From contig JADZCY010000175.1 in NCBI GenBank assembly GCA_020851325.1, forward strand, positions 1-59,576: a DNA stretch of 59,576 bases, read 5' to 3'. This DNA comes from Acidobacteriota bacterium. GTDB lineage: Bacteria; Acidobacteriota; Vicinamibacteria; Vicinamibacterales; UBA2999. A program made the position numbers and the translations under genes. Of the stretch, positions 16,292 to 34,840 are shown in pieces. Numbering within the stretch: the first letter of the stretch is position 1; each line of letters opens with the position of its first letter. The notes under the pieces are model-generated. The model was given only the letters and a program-made list of their open reading frames with translations. It did no database searches and had not been told where the DNA came from.

Positions 16292-17566
16292 TCAGGAGAC
16301 GGCGCGGCGCCAGCGGGTGCCGAGCCACACGGCGTTCACCACCGACAGCACCGCCAGCACGACGCCGACGGCGGAGATCCCCGGAATGCCCAAGCCAATG
16401 GCCGCCATCGGCGCGTAGGCCCAGGCGCCCAGCTGATCGCCGGCACGGTAGACGAACGTGTCGATGAAGCCCTTCGTCTTGTAGCGGTCTTCCGACGACA
16501 CCACGGTGAACAGCACCTCGCGCGCCGGGCGGTTGATGGCGAAGTTGCCGGCCCGCCGCAGCACCTGGAACGCCATCAGCACGCCAATCGACGGCGCCAG
16601 CCCCAGCGTGCTGAAGCCGAGCACGCTCAGCGCCGGCAGGAAGGCCAACGCCGCCACGATCCCGAACGCGCGCATGAACCAGCCGGTCGCGAACATCTGC
16701 GTCGTCAGGGTGATGAGGTTGACCAGGAGATCGATGTTGGCGAAGAAGCGCGTGCGCTCGGCGCTGTCGGTCATCGCCACGTCGACCAGCGCCGCCTGCT
16801 GGAAATACAGGAACGTCGTGAGGATGGTGAACAGCAGCATGTGCAGCGTGATGTTGACGAAGTAGGCGCTGGTCAGCGTGCGCCGCATCCCTTCCCAGAC
16901 GCTGCCGCCCATGCCGGCCGCCTGCTCTTCCTCGGTGAGGCGCGGCGCCGCGCCCGCCTCGCCCACCGCCGCGAAACGCAGCAGACGGCGCGCCGACAAC
17001 GCCGCGACTTCGAGCAGCACGACCGACACCAGCATCAGGTTCATGCGCCCGAGCGGCGCGATCAGCAGCGAGGTGGTGGCCGCGCCAGTGACGGCGCCAA
17101 TGGTGCCGGCCGCTCCGACGAGGCCGAACAGCCGCTGTCCCTGCTCGGCGGTGAACGCGTCCGCCATCACCGACCAGAAGATCGAGACGACGAACATGTT
17201 GAAGACGGAGAGCCACACGAAGAACACGCGGGCCACCCAGATCTGCTGCTCCGGCGCCACCAGGTGCAGCGCGACGAAGAAGCCGATCAGGTTGAGACTG
17301 AAGAAGCGGTAGGCGGTGGAGACGAACACGCGCCGGGGCAGGCGCGCCGCCAGGAACGCGAACGGCGGGTTGGCCAGCAGCATCCCGACGAGGGACGCCG
17401 TGAACATCCACGGCAGGTTCTGGACGCCCCCGGCCACCCCGATGTCGTCGCGGATCGGCCGGAGGACGTAATACGCGGACAGGACGGAAAAGAAGAACAG
17501 CCACGACCAGGCGACGGCCGTGGCTTCCTTCGGTTTGATCCCGAACCTATGCGCCAGGAAGGGCAT
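16292..17566 (-). CDS. MFS / ATP:ADP-antiporter-like membrane protein
   Basis: 424 aa with about 12 membrane helices. The first helix region has the signature SAYYVLRPIRDDIGVAGGV, typical of the NTT/Npt1-like branch of the major facilitator superfamily. FAINRPAREVLFTVVSSEDRYKTK near the C-terminus is also characteristic. The closely related gene at 18543 lies on the other side of an aldo-keto reductase. The ATG is inside the reductase reading frame, overlapping by 20 bp, so translation is probably coupled. Whether it moves nucleotides is unproven; many bacterial members have other or unknown substrates. Confidence 0.8.
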   Translation of the reverse strand: MPFLAHRFGIKPKEATAVAWSWLFFFSVLSAYYVLRPIRDDIGVAGGVQNLPWMFTASLVGMLLANPPFAFLAARLPRRVFVSTAYRFFSLNLIGFFVALHLVAPEQQIWVARVFFVWLSVFNMFVVSIFWSVMADAFTAEQGQRLFGLVGAAGTIGAVTGAATTSLLIAPLGRMNLMLVSVVLLEVAALSARRLLRFAAVGEAGAAPRLTEEEQAAGMGGSVWEGMRRTLTSAYFVNITLHMLLFTILTTFLYFQQAALVDVAMTDSAERTRFFANIDLLVNLITLTTQMFATGWFMRAFGIVAALAFLPALSVLGFSTLGLAPSIGVLMAFQVLRRAGNFAINRPAREVLFTVVSSEDRYKTKGFIDTFVYRAGDQLGAWAYAPMAAIGLGIPGISAVGVVLAVLSVVNAVWLGTRWRRAVS

Positions 17567-18497
17567 CGACGAACGCAGCCATGCGCTTCCTCAGCTCCTG
17601 GCTGGGCAGACGGCCGATGCCGCCGCCAAGGTTGTCGAGCATGTTCTTCGGCTGGCTCGTCGCCGGCGTGACGGCGGTGATCGCCGGGTGGCCAACCACC
17701 CACTTCAGGAAGACCTGCGCCCAGCTCTTCGCGTCGATCTCGGCCGCCCAGTCGGGCAGCGGCGTGTTGCCGACGCGCTTGAACAGCCGCGTGCGGCCGA
17801 ACGGCGCGTAGGCCAGCACCGCGATCTTCTTCTCCTGCGCCAGCGGCAGGATCTCGCTCTCGACGTCGCGGCCGTCGATGGCGTAGTCGATGCCGATGAA
17901 GTCGAGCGGCTCGTTGCGCATGATCTTGATCAGCTCCGGATACTGCTGATCGAAGGTCGTGGTGATGCCCATGTAGCGGATGCGGCCCTGCTTCTTGAAC
18001 TCGCGCAGGATCGGCAACTGCGTCGCCGGATCGCCGAGGTTGTGCACCTGGATCAGATCGATCTTCGCCTTGCCGACGCGCTGGAACGAGGCTTCCACCT
18101 GCGCCTTCGCCGCCGCCGGATCCGCTGACGACCCGCCGCGGCCGGCGACGTTCAGCTTCGTCGCCCAGAACACGCGGTCGCCCCACTTCTGTTCCCTGAT
18201 GATGCGGCCGGCGACTTCTTCGGACGCGCCGTAGCTCGGCGCCGTGTCGAACAGCGTCGCGCCGCCATCGAGCATCGTCTTGAAGACGTCGCGGAGCGCG
18301 GTGACGTCTTCCTGCCGCGCCACCTGCGAGAACGTCGCCGAACTGCCGAGGCCGATGACGGGAAGCTGTTCGCCGGTGGACGGAATGGCGCGCGTGATGA
18401 TCTTGCCCTGCGCGAACAGGTCGCGACCGCCAAGGGCCAGAGCGGCGGTAGTGCCGAGAGTCATGGACAGCATGTCGCGGCGCGTGATGGTGAACAC
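17547..18497 (-). CDS. Exported aldo/keto reductase
   Basis: 316 aa. The N-terminus is a twin-arginine-like signal (TRRDMLSM, then a hydrophobic run ending at DLFAQG), so it is probably exported to the periplasm. The AKR catalytic tetrad is complete: Asp84, Tyr89, Lys114 and His152. The GTG start follows AGGAGG by 8 nt. Its gene sits between two paralogous MFS transporters in the same direction. It reduces a carbonyl, or works in reverse, with a nicotinamide cofactor. An exported AKR is odd because NADPH is cytoplasmic, unless it folds with its cofactor before Tat export. Confidence 0.85.
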   Translation of the reverse strand: MFTITRRDMLSMTLGTTAALALGGRDLFAQGKIITRAIPSTGEQLPVIGLGSSATFSQVARQEDVTALRDVFKTMLDGGATLFDTAPSYGASEEVAGRIIREQKWGDRVFWATKLNVAGRGGSSADPAAAKAQVEASFQRVGKAKIDLIQVHNLGDPATQLPILREFKKQGRIRYMGITTTFDQQYPELIKIMRNEPLDFIGIDYAIDGRDVESEILPLAQEKKIAVLAYAPFGRTRLFKRVGNTPLPDWAAEIDAKSWAQVFLKWVVGHPAITAVTPATSQPKNMLDNLGGGIGRLPSQELRKRMAAFVDALPGA

Positions 18498-18542: not shown

Positions 18543-19868
18543 TTACGACGCCGTGGCGGGGACCACGGTGCCGCGCGTGCCGGTCTCTTCCTGTCGACGC
18601 CCGAGCCACAGCGCCGTGGCCACCCAGGCCATCCCGAGCGGCACGGCCGCCCAGGCGATGGCCCCGGCGCCAAGGCCCAGCATGGCAATGCCGCTGGAGG
18701 CCCACGCGCCGACCTGGTCGCCAAACCTGTAGACCACGGTGTCGATGAAGCTCTTCGCTTTGTACTTGTCCTCGCGGCTCACCGATGTGAACAGCACTTC
18801 ACGGCTCGGTCGCGCGAAGACGAAATTACCGGCGCGCCGCAGCACCGTGAAGCCGACGACGATGGCGGCGGTGGGCATCAGGCCGAGCAGCAGGAAGCCG
18901 ACGGCGGTGACGACCGGCACGACGGTCAGCGTGAACGTGATACCGGCCGACTTCATGATGCGTCCGGTGAGGAACAACTGGCCGCCGAGCGTGAGGGCGT
19001 TCACCAGCAGATCGATGCGCGCGAAAAACGCCGTGCGCGCGCCGCGATCGGCGAAGGTGCGATCGACGATCTCGGCCTGCTGGAAATACAGGAACGTCGA
19101 CAGCACCGTGTAGAGCAGCATGTAGGTGGCGATGCCGAGCAGATACGGCGACGACAACGCGTGCGTCAGGCCCGCCATCACGCCGCCGCCAATCGGCGCC
19201 GCGTCGCTTGACACCGCTGCCCCACCCGCCGGGCGATTGAACGCCTCGGTCAGCGCGCCAAGCCGCTTCGACGCCTGCACGCCGAACTCGAGCAGACCGG
19301 CCGACACCAGCAGCAGCATCGGCACGCCGACGCTCTGCACCGTGGTGGCGGTGATCCCCGAGCCGAGAATGCCGCCGAGCGTCGCCGCCGCGGCGATGAA
19401 GCCGAACAGCCGCTTGCCCTGCTCGCTGCTGAAGACGTCCACCATGAACGCCCAGAACACCGAGACGACGAACAGGTTGAACACCGACGTCCAGATGAAG
19501 AACGCGCGGCCCACCCAGACGTTGGCCTCGCCGCTCACCGAGCGGAACAGCACGAGGAACAGCAGCAGGTTGAGGATGAAGAAGCGGTAGGTGATGCCGA
19601 TGAACTTGCGCCGCGGCAGTTCCTTGACAAGCGCCGCGAACGGCGCGTTGACCGCCATCATCGCCAGCAGCGTGCCGGTGAACAGCCACGACAGGTTGTT
19701 GACGCCGCCGGCGACGCCGGCTTCGTCGCGAATGGGACGGATGACGGAATAAGCGCTGAAGACCGCGAACAGATACAGGAACGCCCAGGCCACGAGGCGG
19801 CCTTCACCGGGCTTCATCGATACCAGGCGGCTCATCAACGAATCGGGACGGTCGGCCGGGGCGGTCAC
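18543..19868 (-). CDS. MFS / ATP:ADP-antiporter-like membrane protein, paralogue
   Basis: About 441 aa, 12 predicted helices, with the same marks as the gene at 16292: SAYSVIRPIRDEAGVAGGV in the first helix region and FARPSREVLFTSVSREDKYKAK late. The start is uncertain: GTG at 19868, TTG at 19877 and ATG at 19835 are all in frame and none has a clear ribosome site. It is the first gene of a three-gene set with the reductase and the second transporter, probably an operon that imports a compound and processes it. The substrate is unknown. Confidence 0.8.
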   Translation of the reverse strand: MTAPADRPDSLMSRLVSMKPGEGRLVAWAFLYLFAVFSAYSVIRPIRDEAGVAGGVNNLSWLFTGTLLAMMAVNAPFAALVKELPRRKFIGITYRFFILNLLLFLVLFRSVSGEANVWVGRAFFIWTSVFNLFVVSVFWAFMVDVFSSEQGKRLFGFIAAAATLGGILGSGITATTVQSVGVPMLLLVSAGLLEFGVQASKRLGALTEAFNRPAGGAAVSSDAAPIGGGVMAGLTHALSSPYLLGIATYMLLYTVLSTFLYFQQAEIVDRTFADRGARTAFFARIDLLVNALTLGGQLFLTGRIMKSAGITFTLTVVPVVTAVGFLLLGLMPTAAIVVGFTVLRRAGNFVFARPSREVLFTSVSREDKYKAKSFIDTVVYRFGDQVGAWASSGIAMLGLGAGAIAWAAVPLGMAWVATALWLGRRQEETGTRGTVVPATAS

Positions 19869-19961
19869 AGTTGCCAATACTGTAACCGCGCCGGCGGCAT
19901 TTACCGCGGTTGGCTTTGCGATCGCCCGGGGACCAGCCGGCCATGCGGTCGCACGCGACGC

Positions 19962-21848
19962 CTACACGACGAAATCGAGGTTCTCTGTCACACGCGCGTT
20001 ACCGCTGCTGAACGTCGTCGCCAGATGACCGATGCGCCGCTCGGCCTCGGCGAGGTCGGTGACGCTCAGCGTGGCGTTCAGCAGGTCGATGTACCACGGC
20101 AGCTTGACGGGATCGTTGACGTAGGCGTCCACTATCGCCCGTGCAATCGGCACGGTGGTGCGCTTCGAGTCGTCGTGCACATCGCGGTTCGAGGCGGCCA
20201 GGAGCTTCCGATATTCCTCGTCGAGCAATCGCGCGAAGAGCGCCTGCGTGAACACGTCACCGGTCTTCACGCCCGTCGCCGCGTCGTCTTCGGTGAGCGT
20301 CGCGCCCTTGTGCAGCCATTCCCACAGGATGCTCAGGCGAATCTCGCCCGTCGCCATATCTTCCATCAGATACAGCACGTCGTCGTTGCCGAAGAAGTCG
20401 GCGGGCTTGAGCGCCGCCGCCTGCATGCCCTGGAGGAAGGCGTTGCCGTACTGCACGCCGACGCTGATCAAGTCGCGCGCCCCGCGAATCGTCCGCGGGG
20501 CCGGTTCGAGCGCGGTCAGGCCGGCCGCAGCGGCGGCGTCGTACTCGAGCGGCGTGAAGGCGCGCCCCAACTGATTCGCGTCGCCCACCTTCTCCCACAC
20601 GGGCCGGACGATGTGCACCATCTTCCAGTGCGCCACCCACTTGCCACTGGCGCCGGCGGCTTGTTCACGCGTGGCACCCGCAACCGCGCGCGTCATGCCG
20701 GCGGCCACGCCTGCCGCCGAACCCACGGGGATGTTCGGCTCCATGCCGCCTTGCCACAACGCGCACTGCCCTGCCTCGTCCGGTGTGTTCACCGCACGCC
20801 GGACGCGGTCCTCGTAGGCGCGCATGTAGCCGTAGGTCATCGTCACGGCGTCGATGTTGGGATTGATGAACGACGGGTTCCATGCCAGCGCGTCGGAGAC
20901 GCTGTTGATGTAGTCCCAGCGGCCGGTGTTGAAGCCGACGAAGCGCGGCCCCAGCGCGGCGCGGATCTCCATCAACTGGAAGCACGCCTCGACCTGCTCG
21001 ACGAGCACGTAGGTCTTGATGGTGCCGATGAAGAGGCCGACATGCCGCTCGAGCGCCGTCAGGATCTCGTGCCACAGTGCCGCTTCTTCCGCGGTCTGAA
21101 TCTTCGGCAGATAGAGCACGATCGAGGCGCCACGCGCGCGCAGCGCCTCGTGGTTGTGCACCACGTAGAGCGCGGCATCGACGATGGAAGCGGAGAAGCC
21201 GCCGCCGTGCAGCCAGCGCACGTGACGATCGTCGAGGTGCAGACCACGGGCGCGGAAGATCACCGTCGTCACATCGAGCTGCGTGCGCCAGTCGCTGACG
21301 ATGTCGCGGCCGAAGAAGCCATCGGACCAGCGATTCATCTCGCCGGCCACCTGTTCGGCGACACTCATGAACGCGGCGTCACGCGCGATCGCCAGCCGCA
21401 GGTTGCGCTGGTTGTCGAGCGACATCGTCCCCAACTGGCCGAGCGCATCTTCGCCGTCGAACATCCAGCCGTCGGCGCCGGAGAGCAGCGCGTAGGCGAC
21501 GTTGCGAATGCTGCGCTCGAGCGGCTCGCGCGGTTTCGCCGCGGGGCCGGTGCCCTGGATCCACTGTCGCTGCAGGTCGGCGGGAATGGTGCTGCCAGTG
21601 AATCGTCCGGCGCGGGCATCGCGGACGACAATGCCGGTACGTGGAATCACGCCGTCGGCGGCAAGGAAGTCGAGCGGTTGGCGGCTGTCGGCACGACGGC
21701 GGCGGCGGTCGAGACGCGACGCCATCACGGCCTGACGGGCGGCGTCGAGCGGCGCCAGGTCGTTCAGCGCGGCCAGCGCCGCGTCGGTGAACACATCGGG
21801 ATACATCTCGGCCGCGGCGCGGCTGACTTGCAGGGACGGATCAGGCAT
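19962..21848 (-). CDS. Malate synthase
   Basis: 628 aa. Clear malate synthase A-type motifs: RARGLHLDD (active-site arginine region), LPKIQTAEEAALWHEIL, TYVLVEQVEACFQLMEI, FNTGRWDYINS and LMEDMATGEI with the catalytic aspartate near residue 493. It makes malate from glyoxylate and acetyl-CoA. It is longer than the usual AceB of about 530 aa, the extra length lying mainly at the N-terminus. ATG at 21848 lies 4 bp after the patatin stop; a GTG at 21863 would overlap it. No isocitrate lyase gene is in the window. It is the last gene of an operon with a caspase-like and a patatin-like protein. Confidence 0.85.
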   Translation of the reverse strand: MPDPSLQVSRAAAEMYPDVFTDAALAALNDLAPLDAARQAVMASRLDRRRRRADSRQPLDFLAADGVIPRTGIVVRDARAGRFTGSTIPADLQRQWIQGTGPAAKPREPLERSIRNVAYALLSGADGWMFDGEDALGQLGTMSLDNQRNLRLAIARDAAFMSVAEQVAGEMNRWSDGFFGRDIVSDWRTQLDVTTVIFRARGLHLDDRHVRWLHGGGFSASIVDAALYVVHNHEALRARGASIVLYLPKIQTAEEAALWHEILTALERHVGLFIGTIKTYVLVEQVEACFQLMEIRAALGPRFVGFNTGRWDYINSVSDALAWNPSFINPNIDAVTMTYGYMRAYEDRVRRAVNTPDEAGQCALWQGGMEPNIPVGSAAGVAAGMTRAVAGATREQAAGASGKWVAHWKMVHIVRPVWEKVGDANQLGRAFTPLEYDAAAAAGLTALEPAPRTIRGARDLISVGVQYGNAFLQGMQAAALKPADFFGNDDVLYLMEDMATGEIRLSILWEWLHKGATLTEDDAATGVKTGDVFTQALFARLLDEEYRKLLAASNRDVHDDSKRTTVPIARAIVDAYVNDPVKLPWYIDLLNATLSVTDLAEAERRIGHLATTFSSGNARVTENLDFVV

Positions 21849-21852
21849 GCCA

Positions 21853-24800
21853 TTAGGTATCACATTGGTCGTGCAGCACCTTCCATTTCTCGAGATCGAG
21901 CACCATCACGGTGTCGTGCGGCGTGGTGCGGAAGTCCAGCGCCTCGAGCATCGCGGCCGGCACGGTGTCTTCGGCACCGGCGGCAATCTGCTGGAAGTGC
22001 TGCGCGCGATACTGGGCGACGAAGTTGCGTTCGTCCTCCCGGGCGATGCGGTGACTCCCGGCCTTGTCCGGCTTGCCGACGACGACGTAGCAGGTGTGGC
22101 ACGTGCGCGCGAGTTCGCAGAGCGCGCCTTCGAGGAGGAGGCGGCCCAGTCCCGCGCCCCACAGTGACGGCGGCACGAAGAAGTCGTCCGATCGCCAGCC
22201 GGCGATGTCGCCGTGAACGGTGACGGCGTGCAGGCCGAGATCGAGCGGCAGGCGATCCTCTTCGTCGCGCAGCCGCAGGACGAAGTAGGTGAAGGCCGAC
22301 GGATCGTTCACCCAGCGCGGCCGGCCGGGCATGCGCTCCTGCCACCAGTACGACGCCAGTCCCACCGGCGCCACGCTCAGGCGATTCACCATCACGCGCT
22401 GGAACGCCGCCTGCGCCTGCGACGCGTCCTCGCCGTTGGCGTGCGCGGCTTCTTTGGCCATGCGCGACTGATCGATGCCGATGCCAAGCCGGTGACGCAG
22501 GAAGCGCTGGAAGCCCGGGCTGTAGAGCGGCGCCAGAATCGGCCACCAGAGCCTGAAGGTCGGCGCCGTGGTCCAGCGGGCGAACAGATTGACCCAGCCG
22601 GTGTTGAGCGGATGTCCCCAATGCCGGTCGAGCGCGCAGGCCGTCCACACGTCTTCCATCGCCTGGGTCACGCGCAGCATGAACGCGAGGTCGGCGGCGG
22701 TGACCGTGGCGGCGCGGTGCGGCGACGGCGGCCCGATGTCTCGTACCATGGCGCTGACCTCGGGGAACACTTCGGCGATCAGGTGACTGTCCTTCTCGTG
22801 CCGCAGTTCGCGCTCGAGTTCGCCGAAGCGCGCCGTCATCGCCAGCACCTGGTCCTGCAATCCCGGCGGCGTCGGATACCACGCATGCCGCGCGCTGGTG
22901 AACAGCCAGTCGCCGGTGATGATCGCCGGTTCGCCGACTTCGCGCATGAAGCCGAAGGCGCGCTCACCGACGTGATGGCCGAGGCGTCGATAGGACTCCC
23001 ACTGCGCCTCGTCGTAGAACTGATCGGTCGTGCCCTCGTGCGGGAAGGCATGGTTGCGCGTCTTGTACTGCCGCACGTCCGGCGGCTCGTCACCGGTCAA
23101 GGTCGGCTTGAGGTAGATGAGCACGCCGTGATCGACATCCGAATAGTCGATCGAGCCGACGACGACGTGCTGCAGCGAGCAGCCCTTGTCGTCCGGACGC
23201 AGCGGCGCGACATCGAGCTGGATCTCGACGCCGAAGTCCTCGCGGATGCGCCGGAGCGCGTTGCCGAGATCGTCGAACGCCACATCGGGGTCGGCGCCGC
23301 AGTCCGAGACGATGATGTAGCGGCAGTGCCGGCGCACCAGTTCATAGAGCCCGAGGTTTTCGAAGTGGCCGCCGTCGGACAAGTGCACGTCGCGCTGCAG
23401 CACGCCGGGTGTGATCACGCCGTCGACGCCGACCTTGTAGGCGCTTGCCGCCGTCATGCCGAAGAACTCGCGATAGAGCAGCACGCCGGGCCAGCGCCGG
23501 CCCGACACTGCGGCCGCGCAGGGGTGACGCACCCACAGCCCGAGGCGCAGGTTGAGCGCGGTGACGAGAAACCCGACCACCGGCCCGAAGCGGATCGAAT
23601 GCGCGCCCATCGCCGAGTTGAACGCCGCCGCCGAGGCGGTGACGGCAGCGCCGAGCGTGAGATCCCCCGGACCCTGATGATCGCCCGCGATCGTGAAGCC
23701 GTGTCTCGATAGCGTCGCGCTGCGCGCGCCGCGGGTGAGCGTTTCGACAGGATCACCCTTCAGATCGTTGGCGGCGCAGCACACCAGGTGCAGCGGCCGA
23801 TCGACAAGCGCGGCCAGCGGCACGTCGTCGCCGGGTGCACCGTCGGGCACCGTGGGCCTCGACTCGGCGGAGCGATTCTTCGCGGCTTCGGATTCCAGAC
23901 GCGCACCGAGATAAGCGCGGCCGATTCGCTCGCGATAGAACGCATGCAGGCCGACATGCGCCGGATCGATCAGCAGGCCGACGGCAAGCACACCGGTCAT
24001 CACCGACGCGGCGCGATACCACGACATCCAGTCGTCCTGGTTCCAGTCGAGGAGCGCGCTGCCGACGGCGCCGATCGTCAGCAGCAGCGTCAGGTACGCC
24101 AGCCCCTGCGGCGCGAACTCCTGCACGCGCGCCCAGATCGAGGACGCCCCCGCCGGCGGACGCACGACCTGCAGCATCCAGCGGCGGGTCGCGGCGAAAC
24201 CGGCGCCGGAGAGCAGCGTCGGCGCGAGGAGTTCCCAGACGAAGCCGACATTGGCGCAGAGATGCCACACCGCGCCGAGGGCCAGCCACACCAGCCCGAG
24301 GCCGAACAGGCGCATCGTCACGCGGTCGAACGCCGAGACGCTGACGAGCGACCACGGCCGCGGGTTCACCGCATGCCAGAGTCGCACGACGAGCAGCGCC
24401 AGGCCCGCCGCGATCCACGTGAACGCGAACTCGAACAGGCGCGGGCTGAAGAACCACGTGCGCGGCAGCTCGCCTTCCTGCTCGCCACGCACGCGATCGA
24501 CGGCGCGCCGCGTCCCGACCAGGTGCCACCAGCGATCGTACGGCGCGTCGCCGGCGAGGTCGATGAAGCGATGCGAAAGGCCGGTGTCGCCCGGCATTGG
24601 CGGCCCGACCTCGGCTTCGTACACCGTCCAGCGATGCTGGAAGCGCCACTCGATGAGCGACGGCACCCACGCCTGAATCAGGGCGACGAGCACGAGCGCG
24701 AGCACCGCCGTGCCGCGATCGGCCCACCACGGCGGCGTGCGTCCCGGCACCGGCGCCGAAGCCAGACCCGGCAGGCCTTCCTGCTGCCGCCACGAATACT

Positions 24801-26145
24801 CCAGGACCGCCAGCGTCCCGGCCGTGAACACCACCGCGACAACGACGCTGGCCACCCAGTGGTCGTAGGCGTAGACGAACGTCAGGACCAGCCAGGTGAT
24901 CAGCGCCAGGCCGATCATCGACAGCGCCATCAGCAGCGCCGGCAGCAGTCCCGCGAGCAACGCCACGACGGCGCGCCACATCTCCACTTCGAAGAGACCG
25001 CGGCGCGGCACGAGGAACTCCGAGAACTCGCGCAGGTGACGGACCTCGCCGGCTTCGGCGTGCTGACGGGCGCGGCCCTCCTCGTTGACGGGAAACAGTT
25101 CGTCATCAGGCACCGCGCGCGGACGGACCGGCACGGCATCCGGTGGGACGTCGGAGGCCACGACGGCGGGAAGGGTTGCGGCGTCGCGTTTGTCGGCCTG
25201 GCTCGACAACCACGCCGACAGGAAGCCGCCGACGTAGCCGCCGCCGGAGACCGTCGAGATGTAGTCGATCACCGGCAGGATGCGTCGCGCGTGCAGTTCC
25301 TGCAGCAGGCCGAGATTGAACGTCGCCGATCTGATTCCGCCGCCCGACAGCGCGAGTCCGACGATGTCGGCGGAGCGGAACGAGACGCGCGGCTCTTCCG
25401 ACGGATGCGTGGTGGTGCGGAACTCCGTCTGCGAGCCGCTGCCCTTGGTCGATCGCGCGTTGAAGATGGCGTCGGTCTCGATCGCCATCAACCGATCGAA
25501 GGTCGTCGGACGTGCCGGCATCACGGCGATGTTGCGCCGCGTCCGCAGTCCGCCGCCGCTGAGGACCACCGCCGCCGCCGCGGCGCCGAGCAGGAAGAAG
25601 AACTTGAATTGCGCGTACAGCCGCACGCGCTGCACGTCATCCGGATCGACGGACGTCGACGACAGCAGGCGCAACAGATGATGATTCTCGCCAAGGTCGA
25701 AGGCAACCGCCGCCAACGGCAGCACGAGCAGCGGCACGAAGAACCTCGGCCGCAAACGGCTGGCCGCGCCGCCCCACGAAATCAACAGCGTGAGCCCGAT
25801 GCCGTAGAGCAGGATCAATCGGTTATCGGCGTGGACCAGGCCAATCGCGGTCTGGATCGCGGGCACGCGAGACACGTCCACCGTCGTCCGCCAGGCGTCG
25901 ACGATGTCCTGCGCGTGCGTGACGCTGAACGGAATCTGAAGGCTGACGATGCCGTGACGGGCGAGCGGCGCGCCGACCGTATCGGTGGGCACACGCAGGA
26001 TCGCGGAGTCGCACCACTGGCCGTAGGCGGTGAAGCCCGCCATGGCTAGGGCGACGACGCCGATGGCCGCGATCCACCACTGCCGAGCCAGCCAGTTGGC
26101 AACGGGTCCGCGCGCGTCCTGTGTCCCGCCGGCATCGCGATCCAT
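21853..26145 (-). CDS. Membrane patatin-like phospholipase with GNAT-like C-terminus
   Basis: 1430 aa. Four membrane helices lie in the first 200 residues. The patatin core starts with LALSGGGIRSATFNLG (oxyanion loop, about residue 265) and STVSGGGY carrying the nucleophile serine (about 300). The catalytic aspartate motif SDGGHFENLGLYE comes only near residue 920. In between are about six more hydrophobic helices (roughly 400-770), so a membrane domain interrupts the hydrolase. The last 120 residues include WGAGLGRLLLEGAL, a GNAT-type acetyl-CoA loop. It would hydrolyse membrane lipids from within the membrane. The start overlaps the caspase gene stop (ATGA). Confidence 0.8.
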   Translation of the reverse strand: MDRDAGGTQDARGPVANWLARQWWIAAIGVVALAMAGFTAYGQWCDSAILRVPTDTVGAPLARHGIVSLQIPFSVTHAQDIVDAWRTTVDVSRVPAIQTAIGLVHADNRLILLYGIGLTLLISWGGAASRLRPRFFVPLLVLPLAAVAFDLGENHHLLRLLSSTSVDPDDVQRVRLYAQFKFFFLLGAAAAAVVLSGGGLRTRRNIAVMPARPTTFDRLMAIETDAIFNARSTKGSGSQTEFRTTTHPSEEPRVSFRSADIVGLALSGGGIRSATFNLGLLQELHARRILPVIDYISTVSGGGYVGGFLSAWLSSQADKRDAATLPAVVASDVPPDAVPVRPRAVPDDELFPVNEEGRARQHAEAGEVRHLREFSEFLVPRRGLFEVEMWRAVVALLAGLLPALLMALSMIGLALITWLVLTFVYAYDHWVASVVVAVVFTAGTLAVLEYSWRQQEGLPGLASAPVPGRTPPWWADRGTAVLALVLVALIQAWVPSLIEWRFQHRWTVYEAEVGPPMPGDTGLSHRFIDLAGDAPYDRWWHLVGTRRAVDRVRGEQEGELPRTWFFSPRLFEFAFTWIAAGLALLVVRLWHAVNPRPWSLVSVSAFDRVTMRLFGLGLVWLALGAVWHLCANVGFVWELLAPTLLSGAGFAATRRWMLQVVRPPAGASSIWARVQEFAPQGLAYLTLLLTIGAVGSALLDWNQDDWMSWYRAASVMTGVLAVGLLIDPAHVGLHAFYRERIGRAYLGARLESEAAKNRSAESRPTVPDGAPGDDVPLAALVDRPLHLVCCAANDLKGDPVETLTRGARSATLSRHGFTIAGDHQGPGDLTLGAAVTASAAAFNSAMGAHSIRFGPVVGFLVTALNLRLGLWVRHPCAAAVSGRRWPGVLLYREFFGMTAASAYKVGVDGVITPGVLQRDVHLSDGGHFENLGLYELVRRHCRYIIVSDCGADPDVAFDDLGNALRRIREDFGVEIQLDVAPLRPDDKGCSLQHVVVGSIDYSDVDHGVLIYLKPTLTGDEPPDVRQYKTRNHAFPHEGTTDQFYDEAQWESYRRLGHHVGERAFGFMREVGEPAIITGDWLFTSARHAWYPTPPGLQDQVLAMTARFGELERELRHEKDSHLIAEVFPEVSAMVRDIGPPSPHRAATVTAADLAFMLRVTQAMEDVWTACALDRHWGHPLNTGWVNLFARWTTAPTFRLWWPILAPLYSPGFQRFLRHRLGIGIDQSRMAKEAAHANGEDASQAQAAFQRVMVNRLSVAPVGLASYWWQERMPGRPRWVNDPSAFTYFVLRLRDEEDRLPLDLGLHAVTVHGDIAGWRSDDFFVPPSLWGAGLGRLLLEGALCELARTCHTCYVVVGKPDKAGSHRIAREDERNFVAQYRAQHFQQIAAGAEDTVPAAMLEALDFRTTPHDTVMVLDLEKWKVLHDQCDT

Positions 26146-27920
26146 CAGTCACTCCACGGCACGCGGGCCCCGACAATCGCGCCGGGCCCGAGGATTTGCG
26201 GCTGCTGAGCATAGCCCAGGTCGGCCAGCGTGTCGCGCGTCACTTCGACGAGCCGCTCGAATGTGATGCGCTTGCGGCGCCGCAGTTCCTGACACAAGGC
26301 AAACGTGAACGCACCGTAGCTGGTGACGCCGTGCCGGTATTCGTACGAGAACTCGTTTTCCTGACACGCTTCGATGATGAGCGGCAGGTAAGGACCGATC
26401 TTCGTCGAGCCGGCGCGGCGCTTGCGGCGCTTGTATTCCTCTTCGCTCTGCTGGCGGACGAGCGAGGCGCGGCCGAGGCGCGTCATCGCACCGTCTTCGC
26501 CGAAGAACGCGGCGTTGACGTCCGGCTGCGACGAGAAGCGGCGGTTCAGCGGCTTGAAGTCGCGCGCCACCCACATGTCCGTCTTCGCGTCCCACTTGAT
26601 CTCGCGGTGACGGATGTCGTCCGGCGGGTTGATCCCGCGCACGCGCGCGCCGCCCTGACGGTGCATGCCGCCCGAGTGGCAGCAGTCCATGATCATCCCG
26701 AAGCGCACGGCATAGGGAAGCTGGCTGTAGAGCGCGAAGATCTGGTCGTCGATGATGCCGGTTTCCGGCGACCAGTCGAAGTCGTAGGGCACCAGCGTTT
26801 CGGTCTTGCGATCGGGTTCGAGATCCTCGCCGTACTCGGGGATCACGGCGCCGTGGCCGCTGTAGTAGAAGAGCCGCTCGTCGCCGTCGCGCGGGTCGTC
26901 GAGCAGCCACTTCAGACGCTCGGTGATGGTGGCGGCCGTGGCCCGTTCGTCGAGGCAGACGCGAATGCTCTCGGGGCGGAAGCCGCACTCCTGCAGCGTC
27001 GAGCTCATGAGGAACACGTCGTTGACGCAGCCCTCGAGACGATCCTGCGGATTCGGATAGTTGTTGATGCCGACGAGGAGCGCGCGCCGGGGATCGCGAC
27101 CCTGTTTCGCCAGCACCGCCGCGCTCTCGCGTCGCGGCGCCCGTGCCGCGCCGAATGCTCGCGCGTTGATGCGCTGCTCGGCGATCGGCCGCCACACGTT
27201 CTCGACGGTCTGCAGGTGCGTCAGGTATTCCACCGCCGAGTGATCGGCGAAGCCGTCGATGTCGAACGGCGTCTCCACCTGCCGGAAGCTCGGCATCGTC
27301 CACAGCTTGATCGGCGCCGTGAAGACGTCGTCTTCCTTGTTGTAGAGGTGGTGCCACGACTTCAGCGGCAGCGGTTCGATGCGTCCGTTGGTGAGGTTGC
27401 CGACGACGAAGGCGTTGCCGATCTGTGAACCGAGCGTCACGTAACGGACACCAGCCAACACCTCCGCCACCGTGCCCTTCTTCGCATCGTCGTGACAGAA
27501 GGCGTTGTAGGTGACGAGCGATCCCAGGCTGTGCGCGACGACGATGTCGGGCTGTTCGGTGGCGATGGCGTCGAGCACGCGCGCGCGCGTCTTCGTCTTG
27601 AAGGCGTCGTCTTCCACCCAGGCGACGACGTAGCCGGCGGTCCAGCGAACGCGATCGGAGATGTCGCCGATGACGTCGCGACGACGGCCGAGCGCGGTGT
27701 CGGCGCCCGAGCGCGCCAGCTTCCAGACGGCCTGCATCGTCTCCCACGCCGAGAGATCGACGGTCTCGAAGATGTCGTCGTAGCTGAGGAACGCGCACTC
27801 CAGTTGCAGTGAGTCCTGGCCCGGGACGACCAGCTTCAGCGCCTCCTGCCAATCGTGTTTCCAGGTGCTGTTGCGATGATCACCGAGACCGTGCACGCCG
27901 AGAACCTTGATGGTTTTCAT
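26145..27920 (-). CDS. Alpha/beta hydrolase fused to caspase-like (C14) peptidase
   Basis: 591 aa. The N-terminal half is an alpha/beta hydrolase: VLGVHGLGDH oxyanion region at 6-15 and the nucleophile elbow AHSLGS near 130. The C-terminal half is a caspase-like domain with ALLVGINNYP opening, YYSGHGAVIP (catalytic His about 356) and IMDCCHSGG (catalytic Cys about 412). KTETLVPYDFDW between them is typical of metacaspase-type p20 domains. No signal peptide. ATG at 27920 has GAGG 5 nt upstream; the open frame further upstream lacks a ribosome site. It is the first gene of a three-gene coupled operon and faces away from the glycosyltransferase. Confidence 0.85.
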   Translation of the reverse strand: MKTIKVLGVHGLGDHRNSTWKHDWQEALKLVVPGQDSLQLECAFLSYDDIFETVDLSAWETMQAVWKLARSGADTALGRRRDVIGDISDRVRWTAGYVVAWVEDDAFKTKTRARVLDAIATEQPDIVVAHSLGSLVTYNAFCHDDAKKGTVAEVLAGVRYVTLGSQIGNAFVVGNLTNGRIEPLPLKSWHHLYNKEDDVFTAPIKLWTMPSFRQVETPFDIDGFADHSAVEYLTHLQTVENVWRPIAEQRINARAFGAARAPRRESAAVLAKQGRDPRRALLVGINNYPNPQDRLEGCVNDVFLMSSTLQECGFRPESIRVCLDERATAATITERLKWLLDDPRDGDERLFYYSGHGAVIPEYGEDLEPDRKTETLVPYDFDWSPETGIIDDQIFALYSQLPYAVRFGMIMDCCHSGGMHRQGGARVRGINPPDDIRHREIKWDAKTDMWVARDFKPLNRRFSSQPDVNAAFFGEDGAMTRLGRASLVRQQSEEEYKRRKRRAGSTKIGPYLPLIIEACQENEFSYEYRHGVTSYGAFTFALCQELRRRKRITFERLVEVTRDTLADLGYAQQPQILGPGAIVGARVPWSD

Positions 27921-31448: not shown

Positions 31449-32861
31449 AGGCAGCAACACCTCCTCGTCTTGACGGTCGCCTACCTGGCGTCGCGGGCGG
31501 TGCTGCATTACGCCGGCTTGCGATTCGCGTTCAGTCTCGACTGGATGTGGATGGCCGACGCCGGCGACCTCGAGGATCGGCTGGCCGAGACGCTCTACTA
31601 CTTCCATGCGTTTCCGCCGGGCATGAATGTGCTCACAGGGCTGTTGCTCAAAGCCAGCGAGACGCATGCCGGCACGCTGGCCTGGTTGGTCTTCCTGGCG
31701 CTCGGTGTCGCCCAAGTGAACGGTATTGCCTACCTGGCCACTGCGCTCGGCGTGCCTCGCTGGCCGTCTGCCGCGCTGGCGTTGGCGTTCTCGCTGACGC
31801 CGCCGGCGATCTACTTCGAGCACCTGTATCTCTACGAATGGCCCGTCACCACGCTGTTGGTGTTCGCGCTCGTCGGCGCGCATCGCGCCGTGGTCACCGG
31901 CTCCACGGCGTGGTGGTGCGCCGCCTTTGCCACGACGGCCGCCGTCGGCGCCACGCGCAGCACTTTCCACCTGGCGTGGATGATCCTCATTGTCGTGATG
32001 GCCGCGGCGATGGTGCCGGCGCAGCAGCGGCGCCGCGTGCGCAACGCCGCGCTGATTCCGCTCGCCGTGCTGACGCTGCTCTACGCCAAGAACGAGTGGC
32101 TCGTCGGCGAGTTCGCGGCATCGACGTTCGGTCCCGCGAGCTTCCATCTGGTCACCGTGGATCGGCTGCCGAAGGCGGAGCGGGACGCCGCCATCCGTCG
32201 CGGTATGTTGTCGCCGTTTGCGGCCATCAGCGCCTACGCGCCGCCGCGGCGTTATCTGCTTTTCTTCGCCTCGCCCGACTTGCGCGGCTGGCCGGCATCG
32301 ATCACGCGACTCGATCAGGTGCGCGTCAAGGCGCCGAACTTCAATCACTGGTTCCTGCTGAAGGTGCACGACGCCCGCCGGCGCGACGCCGCCCGCGTGC
32401 TGGTCGCCTATCCGCTCAATTACATCCGCAGCGTGGTGGCCGGCCTGCTCGCGTTCAGCAGCCCGTCGACGATGTGGCATCCGGCAACGGGAACGTCGCG
32501 TTCGCCGCACGCGCAACACCGGGCCGTGCTTGGCGCGTATGAAGACCGCTACAACGCCGTCGTGCACGGTGGACCGTTGGCGCCGGTCGGTCTCTACGCG
32601 CTGGTTCCCCTGCTGCTGCTCTGGGGCGTGTGGCGCACGGTGACATGGTGGCGACGCGGCGGCAGAGACACGGCGCGCGCGCTCCTGCTGGCGCTGCTGC
32701 TCTTCCAGATCGCCTACGTCACCGCCGCCAGCACGATGCTGACGTTTCTCGAATCGTCACGCTATCGCTTCCAGATCGAGCCGTGCCTGTGGCTGCTGGC
32801 AGCCGCCGCGGTCGCGGATGCGCTATCGTCGTGGACCGAGCGACGATGGACATCTACCTGA
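31446..32861 (+). CDS. Polytopic membrane protein, glycosyltransferase-like
   Basis: 471 aa with about ten hydrophobic helices. An acidic loop after the first helix (WMWMADAGDLEDRLAE) precedes YYFHAFPPGMNVL, an arrangement like the DD/DE loop of GT-C membrane glycosyltransferases. The ATG at 31446 is chosen because upstream in-frame codons encode the CACAGATG repeat. It follows the large glycosyltransferase closely and probably belongs to the same surface-glycan locus. Its end overlaps the exonuclease gene by 16 bp. The GT-C call is inference from topology. Confidence 0.7.
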   Translation: MRQQHLLVLTVAYLASRAVLHYAGLRFAFSLDWMWMADAGDLEDRLAETLYYFHAFPPGMNVLTGLLLKASETHAGTLAWLVFLALGVAQVNGIAYLATALGVPRWPSAALALAFSLTPPAIYFEHLYLYEWPVTTLLVFALVGAHRAVVTGSTAWWCAAFATTAAVGATRSTFHLAWMILIVVMAAAMVPAQQRRRVRNAALIPLAVLTLLYAKNEWLVGEFAASTFGPASFHLVTVDRLPKAERDAAIRRGMLSPFAAISAYAPPRRYLLFFASPDLRGWPASITRLDQVRVKAPNFNHWFLLKVHDARRRDAARVLVAYPLNYIRSVVAGLLAFSSPSTMWHPATGTSRSPHAQHRAVLGAYEDRYNAVVHGGPLAPVGLYALVPLLLLWGVWRTVTWWRRGGRDTARALLLALLLFQIAYVTAASTMLTFLESSRYRFQIEPCLWLLAAAAVADALSSWTERRWTST

Positions 32862-33751
32862 TCGACGGCACCTACGAACTGTTCCGGCACTACTTCGCGG
32901 TGCCGAAGGCAAAGGACGCCAGCGGCCGCGAGGTCGGCGCCGTGCGCGGCGTGCTGACGTCGCTGCTGATGCAGATGAAAGCCGGCGACACGTTCATCGG
33001 CGTCGCCACCGATCACGTGATCGAGTCGTTCCGCAACGAGATGTGGCCGGGCTACAAGACCGGCGCCGGCATCGAACCCGATCTGCTCTCGCAGTTCCCG
33101 ATCCTCGAAGACGCGCTGACCTCGCTCGGCGTCGTCGTCTGGCCGATGATCGAGGTGGAAGCGGACGATGCGCTGGCGTCGGCGGCGGTGGCTGCGGCGG
33201 CGGATCCGCGCGTGGAGCGGGTGCTGATCTGCACGCCGGACAAGGACCTCGCGCAGATGGTGCGCGGCACGCGCGTGGTGCAGATGGACCGCCGACAGCG
33301 GACGATTCGCGACGAGGCGGGCGTGGTGGCGAAGTTCGGCGTGCCACCGGCGTCGATTCCCGATTACCTCGCCCTGGTTGGCGATTCGTCGGATGGATAT
33401 CCCGGCCTGCCTGGCTGGGGCGCCAAGTCCGCGGCGGCCGTCCTCGCGCGCTTCGGGCACCTCGAAGCCATCCCCGACGATCCGCTGACCTGGAACGTGA
33501 AGGTCGCCCGCGCCGGCGCGCTGGCCCACACCCTGGCCACCCAGCGCGAGCAGGCGCTGCTCTTCCGGCAGTTGGCCACGCTGCGCACCGACGTGCCATT
33601 GTTCGAATCCGTCGACACCCTGCGCTGGCAAGGACCGACACCGGCATTCGAGACTCTCGGCCCGCGACTTCAATCCGCCGTTCGACGCGGTCCCGAAAGT
33701 GGATCCGGTCCCGAAGGTGGATCCGGTCCCGAAAGCGGCTCTGTCCCGTGA
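32846..33751 (+). CDS. 5'-3' exonuclease (FEN-like)
   Basis: 301 aa. It matches the 5'-3' exonuclease domain of DNA polymerase I: IDGTYELFRHYF at the N-terminus, EADDALASAA, CTPDKDLAQMV and a helix-hairpin-helix region GDSSDGYPGLPGWGAKSA near 177-195. It would cleave flaps or single-stranded 5' ends, using metal ions. No polymerase domain follows. ATG at 32846 lies inside the end of the membrane protein gene. The C-terminal tail (about 280-301) is encoded by an 18-bp tandem repeat and reads as GPESGSGPEGG-like units, a likely disordered addition. Confidence 0.9.
   Translation: MDIYLIDGTYELFRHYFAVPKAKDASGREVGAVRGVLTSLLMQMKAGDTFIGVATDHVIESFRNEMWPGYKTGAGIEPDLLSQFPILEDALTSLGVVVWPMIEVEADDALASAAVAAAADPRVERVLICTPDKDLAQMVRGTRVVQMDRRQRTIRDEAGVVAKFGVPPASIPDYLALVGDSSDGYPGLPGWGAKSAAAVLARFGHLEAIPDDPLTWNVKVARAGALAHTLATQREQALLFRQLATLRTDVPLFESVDTLRWQGPTPAFETLGPRLQSAVRRGPESGSGPEGGSGPESGSVP
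33690..33743 (+). repeat. 18-bp tandem repeat within the exonuclease tail
   Basis: Three units: 33690-33707, 33708-33725 and a diverged 33726-33743, consensus GTCCCGAAAGTGGATCCG. It encodes a Gly/Ser/Pro/Glu repeat at the protein end. Copy number could vary without changing the frame. Confidence 0.9.
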
Positions 33752-33889: not shown

Positions 33890-34840
33890 ATGACGGCCAC
33901 CGCCACCGCTCCCCTGTCGAGATTCCTCACCTTCGAGCGCGACGACTGGGCGCGGCTGCGTGACAACACCCCGCTGACGCTCTCGGAAGCCGACCTCGAT
34001 TCGCTGCGCGGCCTCAACGAACAGCTCTCGCTGGACGAGGTGGTGCGGATCTATCTGCCGCTGTCACGCCTGCTCAACCTGCACGTCCGCGCCGTGCAGG
34101 CGCTGTATCGCGCGCAGCAGACGTTTCTCGGCAATCACACCGACAAGGTGCCGTTCATCATCGGCCTCGCCGGTAGCGTCGCCGTCGGCAAGAGCACGAC
34201 GGCGCGTGTGCTGCAGGCGCTGCTGGCGCGGTGGCCAAGCCATCCGTCGGTGGCACTGGTTACCACCGACGGGTTCCTGTTCCCGAACGCGGTGCTCGAG
34301 GAACGCGGCCTGATGCACCGCAAAGGGTTTCCGGAAAGCTACGATCGCGCCGCGCTCGTGCGCTTTCTCGCCGACGTGAAGGCCGGCTATCCGGAAGTGC
34401 AGGCGCCGGTCTATTCACACCAGCGCTACGACATCGTCCCCGGCGCCGCGCAACTGGTCCGCCATCCCGACGTCGTCATCGTCGAAGGGTTGAACGTGCT
34501 GCAGGGACCGCCGGTGGCGCAGTGGGAGGCGCAGCTCTTCGCGTCGGACTTCTTCGACTACTCCATCTACGTCGACGCCGACGAAGCGCACATCCAGTCC
34601 TGGTACGTCGAGCGCTTCCTGCGTCTGCGCGATACGGTGTTCCAGGATCCGCAGTCCTACTTCCATCGCTACGCGGCACTCAGCGAAAGCGAGGCGCGGC
34701 AGACGGCCGGCGAGATCTGGGCGCGCATCAACGGCGTCAACCTGCGCGAGAACATCCTGCCGACGCGCATGCGCGCGCACCTGATCCTCCAGAAGGGCGC
34801 GGACCACCACGTCGAGCGCGTGCAACTGCGCCGCGTGTAA
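33890..34840 (+). CDS. coaA: Type I pantothenate kinase
   Basis: 316 aa, the usual length. The P-loop GSVAVGKS spans residues 95-102, preceded by [35 protein letters not shown] and VEGLNVLQ are hallmark CoaA stretches. It phosphorylates pantothenate, the first step of coenzyme A synthesis, in the cytoplasm, and in many bacteria is feedback-inhibited by CoA. The gene appears monocistronic. There is no Shine-Dalgarno sequence before the ATG. Confidence 0.95.

Follow-up and report, generated by a model that had tools for sequence, protein, structure and literature searches.

In bacteria, proteases, among them caspases, are known to activate effectors that are their partners (PMC12799240, on the caspase–nuclease (canu) antiphage loci), and CARD-NLR variants with phospholipase effectors have been described as well (PMC13236601). 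In the VMAP/MoxR-vWA ternary conflict systems, a caspase domain is always accompanied by an alpha/beta-hydrolase gene, and joint action of the two has been proposed (Kaur et al. 2020, PMC7159879). Here, we analyze a 59,576-nucleotide stretch of an Acidobacteriota bacterium genome (contig JADZCY010000175.1, assembly GCA_020851325.1; hereafter the window) in which an alpha/beta-hydrolase–metacaspase fusion (CASP), a membrane patatin with a GNAT-like tail (PAT), and a malate synthase are encoded one after the other. We propose, with moderate confidence, that CASP and PAT form a translationally coupled two-gene unit, a putative protease–phospholipase cell-damage pair. The stretch that holds it is variable and bounded by conserved housekeeping genes, and the malate synthase that immediately follows the pair is a resident of the site.

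The combination of hydrolase and caspase is not new in kind, having already been published for conflict systems. The locus shares with the VMAP/MoxR-vWA system a caspase domain and an accompanying alpha/beta-hydrolase, but here the two are fused in one open reading frame (ORF) whereas there the hydrolase is a neighboring gene. The MoxR AAA+, vWA, and VMAP genes that are adjacent in that system are absent from the genes flanking the trio (glycosyltransferase, exonuclease, CoaA-like kinase, MFS, aldo-keto reductase, and TonB receptor). With canu, the locus shares a caspase beside a candidate pro-effector; the canu effector, however, is a gated MBL-type nuclease, while here it would be a patatin, with no nuclease domain detected by Pfam in the three genes. 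Protease-activated partner effectors have precedent (PMC12799240), and we propose that the caspase acts on the patatin. A signal would activate the caspase domain, which would then cleave the membrane patatin and either switch it on or release it; the activated patatin would hydrolyze membrane lipids, and the cell would be damaged or killed. The hydrolase domain could provide a second lipid/ester-cleaving or sensing activity, and malate synthase would owe its expression to a conserved 5' element of its own and serve ordinary glyoxylate metabolism. Cleavage by CASP, activity, and toxicity of the pair are predictions. If correct, a bacterial caspase with a phospholipase partner would be a counterpart of the caspase-gated membrane killing known from animals.

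Three closely packed minus-strand genes, all real ORFs in the window sequence, lie within positions 19962-27920:

26145 to 27920, minus strand: CASP, alpha/beta-hydrolase–metacaspase fusion, 591 amino acids, ATG start at 27920
21853 to 26145, minus strand: PAT, membrane patatin with GNAT-like tail, 1430 amino acids, TAA stop at 21853-21855
19962 to 21848, minus strand: malate synthase, 628 amino acids, ATG at 21848; resident gene, outside the pair

A first-pass annotation had identified these genes and their main domains correctly (ORFs; Pfam C14, Patatin, and MS_TIM-barrel above cut-offs). Its coupling of the first two genes stands, though not in the ATGA form it gave: the TGA stop of CASP and the ATG of PAT share a single base, as TGATG at 26145. 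The 4-nt gap that it placed between PAT and malate synthase is confirmed between the PAT TAA stop and the ATG at 21848. An in-frame GTG at 21863, kept in congeners, offers an alternative malate synthase start that would create an 11-nt overlap with PAT.

The same annotation had suggested that all three genes form a single system for defense or cell death: a phospholipase gated by the protease and controlled by the level of acetyl-CoA or glyoxylate, which malate synthase and the GNAT tail would read. All three genes are tightly spaced on one strand and all three proteins keep their active-site residues, but we now consider this reading highly improbable. Malate synthase is rejected as a third component because of synteny, its conserved 5' element, and its absence near other fusion loci; with the enzyme outside the system, metabolite sensing loses its basis, and the GNAT call is weak. 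What is left is a smaller claim, that a caspase may switch on a membrane phospholipase. The locus also serves as a case in which a three-gene operon is imitated by a variable stretch adjoining a resident gene.

The synteny was read from genes on either side of the trio that serve as markers:

17547 to 18497, minus strand: aldo-keto reductase, 83% identical to the gene beside the malate synthase of congener G002 and 88% identical in congener G003
32630 to 33751, plus strand: 5'-3' exonuclease, 80% identical to a gene on the malate-synthase contig of congener G001
33890 to 34840, plus strand: CoaA-like kinase (PRK family), 76% identical to the gene 57 bp upstream of the G002 malate synthase

G002 has a divergent CoaA-like kinase gene, then malate synthase, then the aldo-keto reductase; these flanking genes match genes found on either side of the trio in the window, and the pair is not there. 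The G001 malate synthase, which begins at the end of a contig, has the exonuclease homolog upstream; a patatin-GNAT homolog (49% identical) lies on a separate short contig of that genome, and a full-length fusion was not found in it. In G003, where we did not find malate synthase, the aldo-keto reductase gene has the MFS gene (87% identical) as its neighbor, the same arrangement as in the window. That flanks on both sides of the pair match the genus also argues against a chimeric contig. More broadly, malate synthase homologs 69-74% identical occur in many genera of the order (59 nearest genomes), and in the neighborhoods read among these genomes malate synthase has different neighbors and is adjoined by neither of the other two genes. 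None of 38 other fusion loci has a malate synthase within about 9 kb. Judged by these gene neighborhoods, malate synthase is conserved in the order, where it normally stands alone, and is located here at its ancestral site. Two findings had been named in advance as telling against a three-gene system, namely genes unlinked in close relatives or malate synthase regularly paired with isocitrate lyase. The first holds for malate synthase; as for the second, isocitrate lyase was not found in the source genome (assembly about 90% complete).

The junction between PAT and malate synthase points the same way, and carries one further feature:

21846 to 21864, minus strand: malate-synthase 5' element, TGTGATAC(N8)ATG, overlapping the last PAT codons; an alternative GTG start or a leader/promoter element

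The malate synthase start reads TGTGATACCTAATGGCATG in the window, TGTGATACCAAGCGGCATG in G002, and TGTGATACGAAACAGCATG in G001, and the distance from TGTGATAC to the ATG is identical in all three. In the window, TGTGATAC doubles as the end of PAT (Cys-Asp-Thr-stop), and PAT homology to G001 ends at DLE(K/Q)W, about nine codons before the PAT stop region. On the simplest interpretation, the pair ended up directly against a 5' element that belongs to malate synthase; this element may be a promoter or a GTG start, both being compatible with the sequence. Whether the change was an insertion here or a loss elsewhere is inferred from three congeners. GC content and GC at third codon positions (GC3) of the pair are no different from those of its neighbors and give no compositional sign of recent transfer.

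The identity of malate synthase, with its active-site motifs, was borne out. MS_TIM-barrel is matched at 3e-45 (Pfam), and the active-site Arg, Glu, and Asp motifs are shared with malate synthase A (E. coli, 3cuz) in an alignment to that enzyme, relative to which the window protein is about 100 residues longer. Its score against the curated malate synthase A model TIGR01344, 238.7 bits against a cut-off of 594.5, places it by sequence in a divergent subfamily. A second malate synthase in the source assembly (L081, G000:C415:2910-4772) is 73% identical to the window copy. We rejected it as the native gene; it groups with genus g21, shares neighbors with genome G034, and is likely a contaminant contig or a transfer.

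CASP itself comprises two domains:

27156 to 27920, minus strand: alpha/beta-hydrolase domain, residues 1-255, with Ser131 of the HSLGS motif (codon 27528-27530), Asp197, and His227
26148 to 27098, minus strand: metacaspase domain, residues 275-591, with His356 (codon 26853-26855) and Cys414 (codon 26679-26681)

The hydrolase–caspase fusion with both catalytic residues, as first annotated, was upheld. Peptidase_C14 is matched at 8e-28 (Pfam), the SGHG His and DCCHSG Cys motifs and the caspase fold are those of a metacaspase (Peptidase C14), and His356 and Cys414 are invariant in 28/28 aligned fusion sequences. For the hydrolase part, Abhydrolase_6 is matched at E=0.02, under the Pfam cut-off; in the same alignment Ser131 is kept in 27/28, Asp197 in 28/28, and His227 in 25/28. 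An AlphaFold2 model (predicted local distance difference test, pLDDT, 82; predicted template modeling score, pTM, 0.82) has secondary structure covering the hydrolase domain. Structure comparison placed the C-terminal half of the model near Arabidopsis metacaspases 4 and 9 (Z about 25-26), but the Foldseek/VIA fold listing was filled by caspases and the comparison covered the caspase half only. CASP thus shares the caspase fold and His-Cys dyad with plant and fungal metacaspases (AtMC9, AtMC4, Yca1) and Geobacter GSU0716, and differs from them in its N-terminal alpha/beta-hydrolase domain and its genomic context. Metacaspases in general cleave behind Arg or Lys residues. One scan of a genome collection recovered the 38 further fusion loci, almost all of them full length, in Acidobacteria, Proteobacteria, Planctomycetes, Nitrospira, Gemmatimonadetes, and Verrucomicrobia; plasmid relatives match the caspase half only.

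PAT is a longer protein in which the patatin catalytic residues are split by membrane helices:

25156 to 25383, minus strand: patatin N-part, with SGGGIRSA as the oxyanion loop and Ser300 in VSGGG as the nucleophile (codon 25246-25248); Pfam Patatin at residues 264-319
23947 to 24969, minus strand: helix insert between catalytic Ser and Asp, about seven hydrophobic helices, residues 393-733 (Kyte-Doolittle)
22966 to 23946, minus strand: patatin C-part, with catalytic Asp924 of SDGGHFEN (codon 23374-23376)
21871 to 22248, minus strand: GNAT-like tail, weak, residues about 1300-1425

The description of a patatin inside a multi-helix membrane protein also proved sound. The Patatin match is 6e-7 (30.2 bits against a Pfam cut-off of 27.7), and the Kyte-Doolittle scan found four further hydrophobic helices N-terminal to the patatin motif. 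Asp924 is invariant in 8 aligned patatin sequences, with the oxyanion loop and Ser300 kept where the region is present. By its SGGG oxyanion loop, Ser-Asp dyad, and Pfam score, PAT is a patatin-like phospholipase with predicted lipase activity. In common with the patatin-like phospholipases VipD and cPLA2 (a remote profile match), it has the oxyanion loop, a catalytic Ser, and the Asp of DGG, but it differs in the multi-helix segment between Ser and Asp, the GNAT-like tail, and replacement of the first Gly of GxSxG (TVSGG). The tail has a WGAGLG motif and matches Pfam Acetyltransf_7 at E=0.057; of its three PDB profile matches, at E 0.4-1.6, two are named acetyltransferases and the third is an uncharacterized protein. 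The split patatin family is present in some members of the order, and rhizobial plasmids carry it too; its neighbors vary, and include di-haem peroxidase in Rhizobium and Methylobacterium. A single-sequence query, a weak test, found no relatives of the patatin among viral contigs.

Evidence from other genomes supports a non-random, though loose, linkage of the fusion and split membrane patatin families. A clear split patatin is present in 12/38 fusion genomes (eleven of the loci and one checked separately), and in 4/38 it shares contig and strand with the fusion at a distance below 15 kb, namely 0.8 kb (G352), 5.4 kb (G342), 10 kb (G339), and 14 kb (G350). On a Poisson estimate, 4 observed against 0.08 expected within 15 kb gives P about 2e-6. 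Also in favor of the pair, two of the linked loci include an astacin-like protease and an Amidase_2 gene, and split patatins are found elsewhere amid TIR genes (two rhizobial plasmids) and next to lysozyme genes. With this recurrent linkage and the gene overlap, the idea of a lipid-attacking, protease-controlled system is plausible for the two-gene pair, though not for three parts.

Several observations weigh against the pair as a functional unit. The Poisson estimate ignores relatedness and its 15 kb limit was picked after the distances were known; at the preset limit of 9 kb, 2 were observed against 0.05 expected (P about 1e-3). The fusions in two of the four linked genomes are close relatives (86% identical). 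The closest fusion relative (L105, 72% identical) and most others have no patatin nearby, one fusion homolog (L101:11231-12487, G230) is directly followed by a clostripain-family (C11) protease gene instead, and patatin-GNAT relatives are present in genomes lacking the fusion. The AlphaFold2 model of PAT is unusable (pLDDT 36). No defense gene was recognized among ten neighboring genes (no PADLOC match), nor was a sensor recognized beside the pair, so that a defense role is not established.

A serious rival, which we consider possible though less probable than the coupled pair, is that no system exists: fusion and patatin would be independently useful hydrolases, for lipid/protein turnover or scavenging, adjacent by chance in an accessory stretch. 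Each family stands alone in most genomes, the local neighbors are a TonB receptor, MFS, and glycosyltransferases, and the adjacency is not kept even in congeners. The 1-nt coupled overlap of CASP and PAT argues otherwise, as does the finding that the two families are repeatedly linked in other lineages.

Larger same-strand gene clusters occur in two of the linked genomes, at L149 (G339:C17) and L115 (G342:C3). Both hold the fusion, an astacin-like metalloprotease, an amidase (Amidase_2), the split patatin, and other enzymes; L149 additionally has RoxA-like cytochrome c genes, and L115 a C70 cysteine protease. The pair could be a reduced form of such an envelope-degrading cluster (caspase fusion, astacin-like protease, peptidoglycan amidase or lysozyme, split patatin, and cytochrome/peroxidase-like genes) used for programmed lysis or attack on other cells. 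Besides the two clusters, this origin is favored by Ramlibacter and Nitratireductor, where a metalloprotease comes about 60 bp after the fusion, and by the lysozyme (Rhizobium) and muramidase (Hymenobacter) found beside split patatins. Yet examples are few, gene order is variable, no match to the astacin-like protease was found elsewhere in the source genome, and no secretion gene was seen; we therefore regard such a reduction as rather unlikely. More tentatively than for the pair itself, we suggest that fusions and split membrane patatins may together make up a previously undescribed module, present in several phyla, in which a protease gates a phospholipase so that the envelope is destroyed in a programmed way. 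An astacin-like protease and peptidoglycan hydrolase would sometimes be part of this module, and the window would hold its minimal two-gene form.

Several side observations concern relatives of both proteins. In Pseudomonas rubra and P. putida (L137:7363-10818 and L138), a triple fusion of about 1150 amino acids joins Phosphoesterase (PF04185), alpha/beta-hydrolase, and caspase (Pfam on one). Fusion homologs in Bradyrhizobium (L111, L117, L139, and L141) appear frameshifted or interrupted, with transposase-like genes near L139. In congener G001 (L094:6188-12441, G001:C40), a gene for a 1081-amino-acid caspase-family protein overlaps one of 1003 amino acids with a caspase-like start. On plasmids of Sinorhizobium chiapasense and Mesorhizobium (L151, L153), the split membrane patatin sits amid three or more TIR-domain genes.

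Finally, related MFS/ATP-ADP-translocase-like genes (16292-17566 and 18543-19877) lie either side of the aldo-keto reductase gene in the window, and the G003 homolog of the 18543-19877 gene is 50% identical to the 16292-17566 gene.

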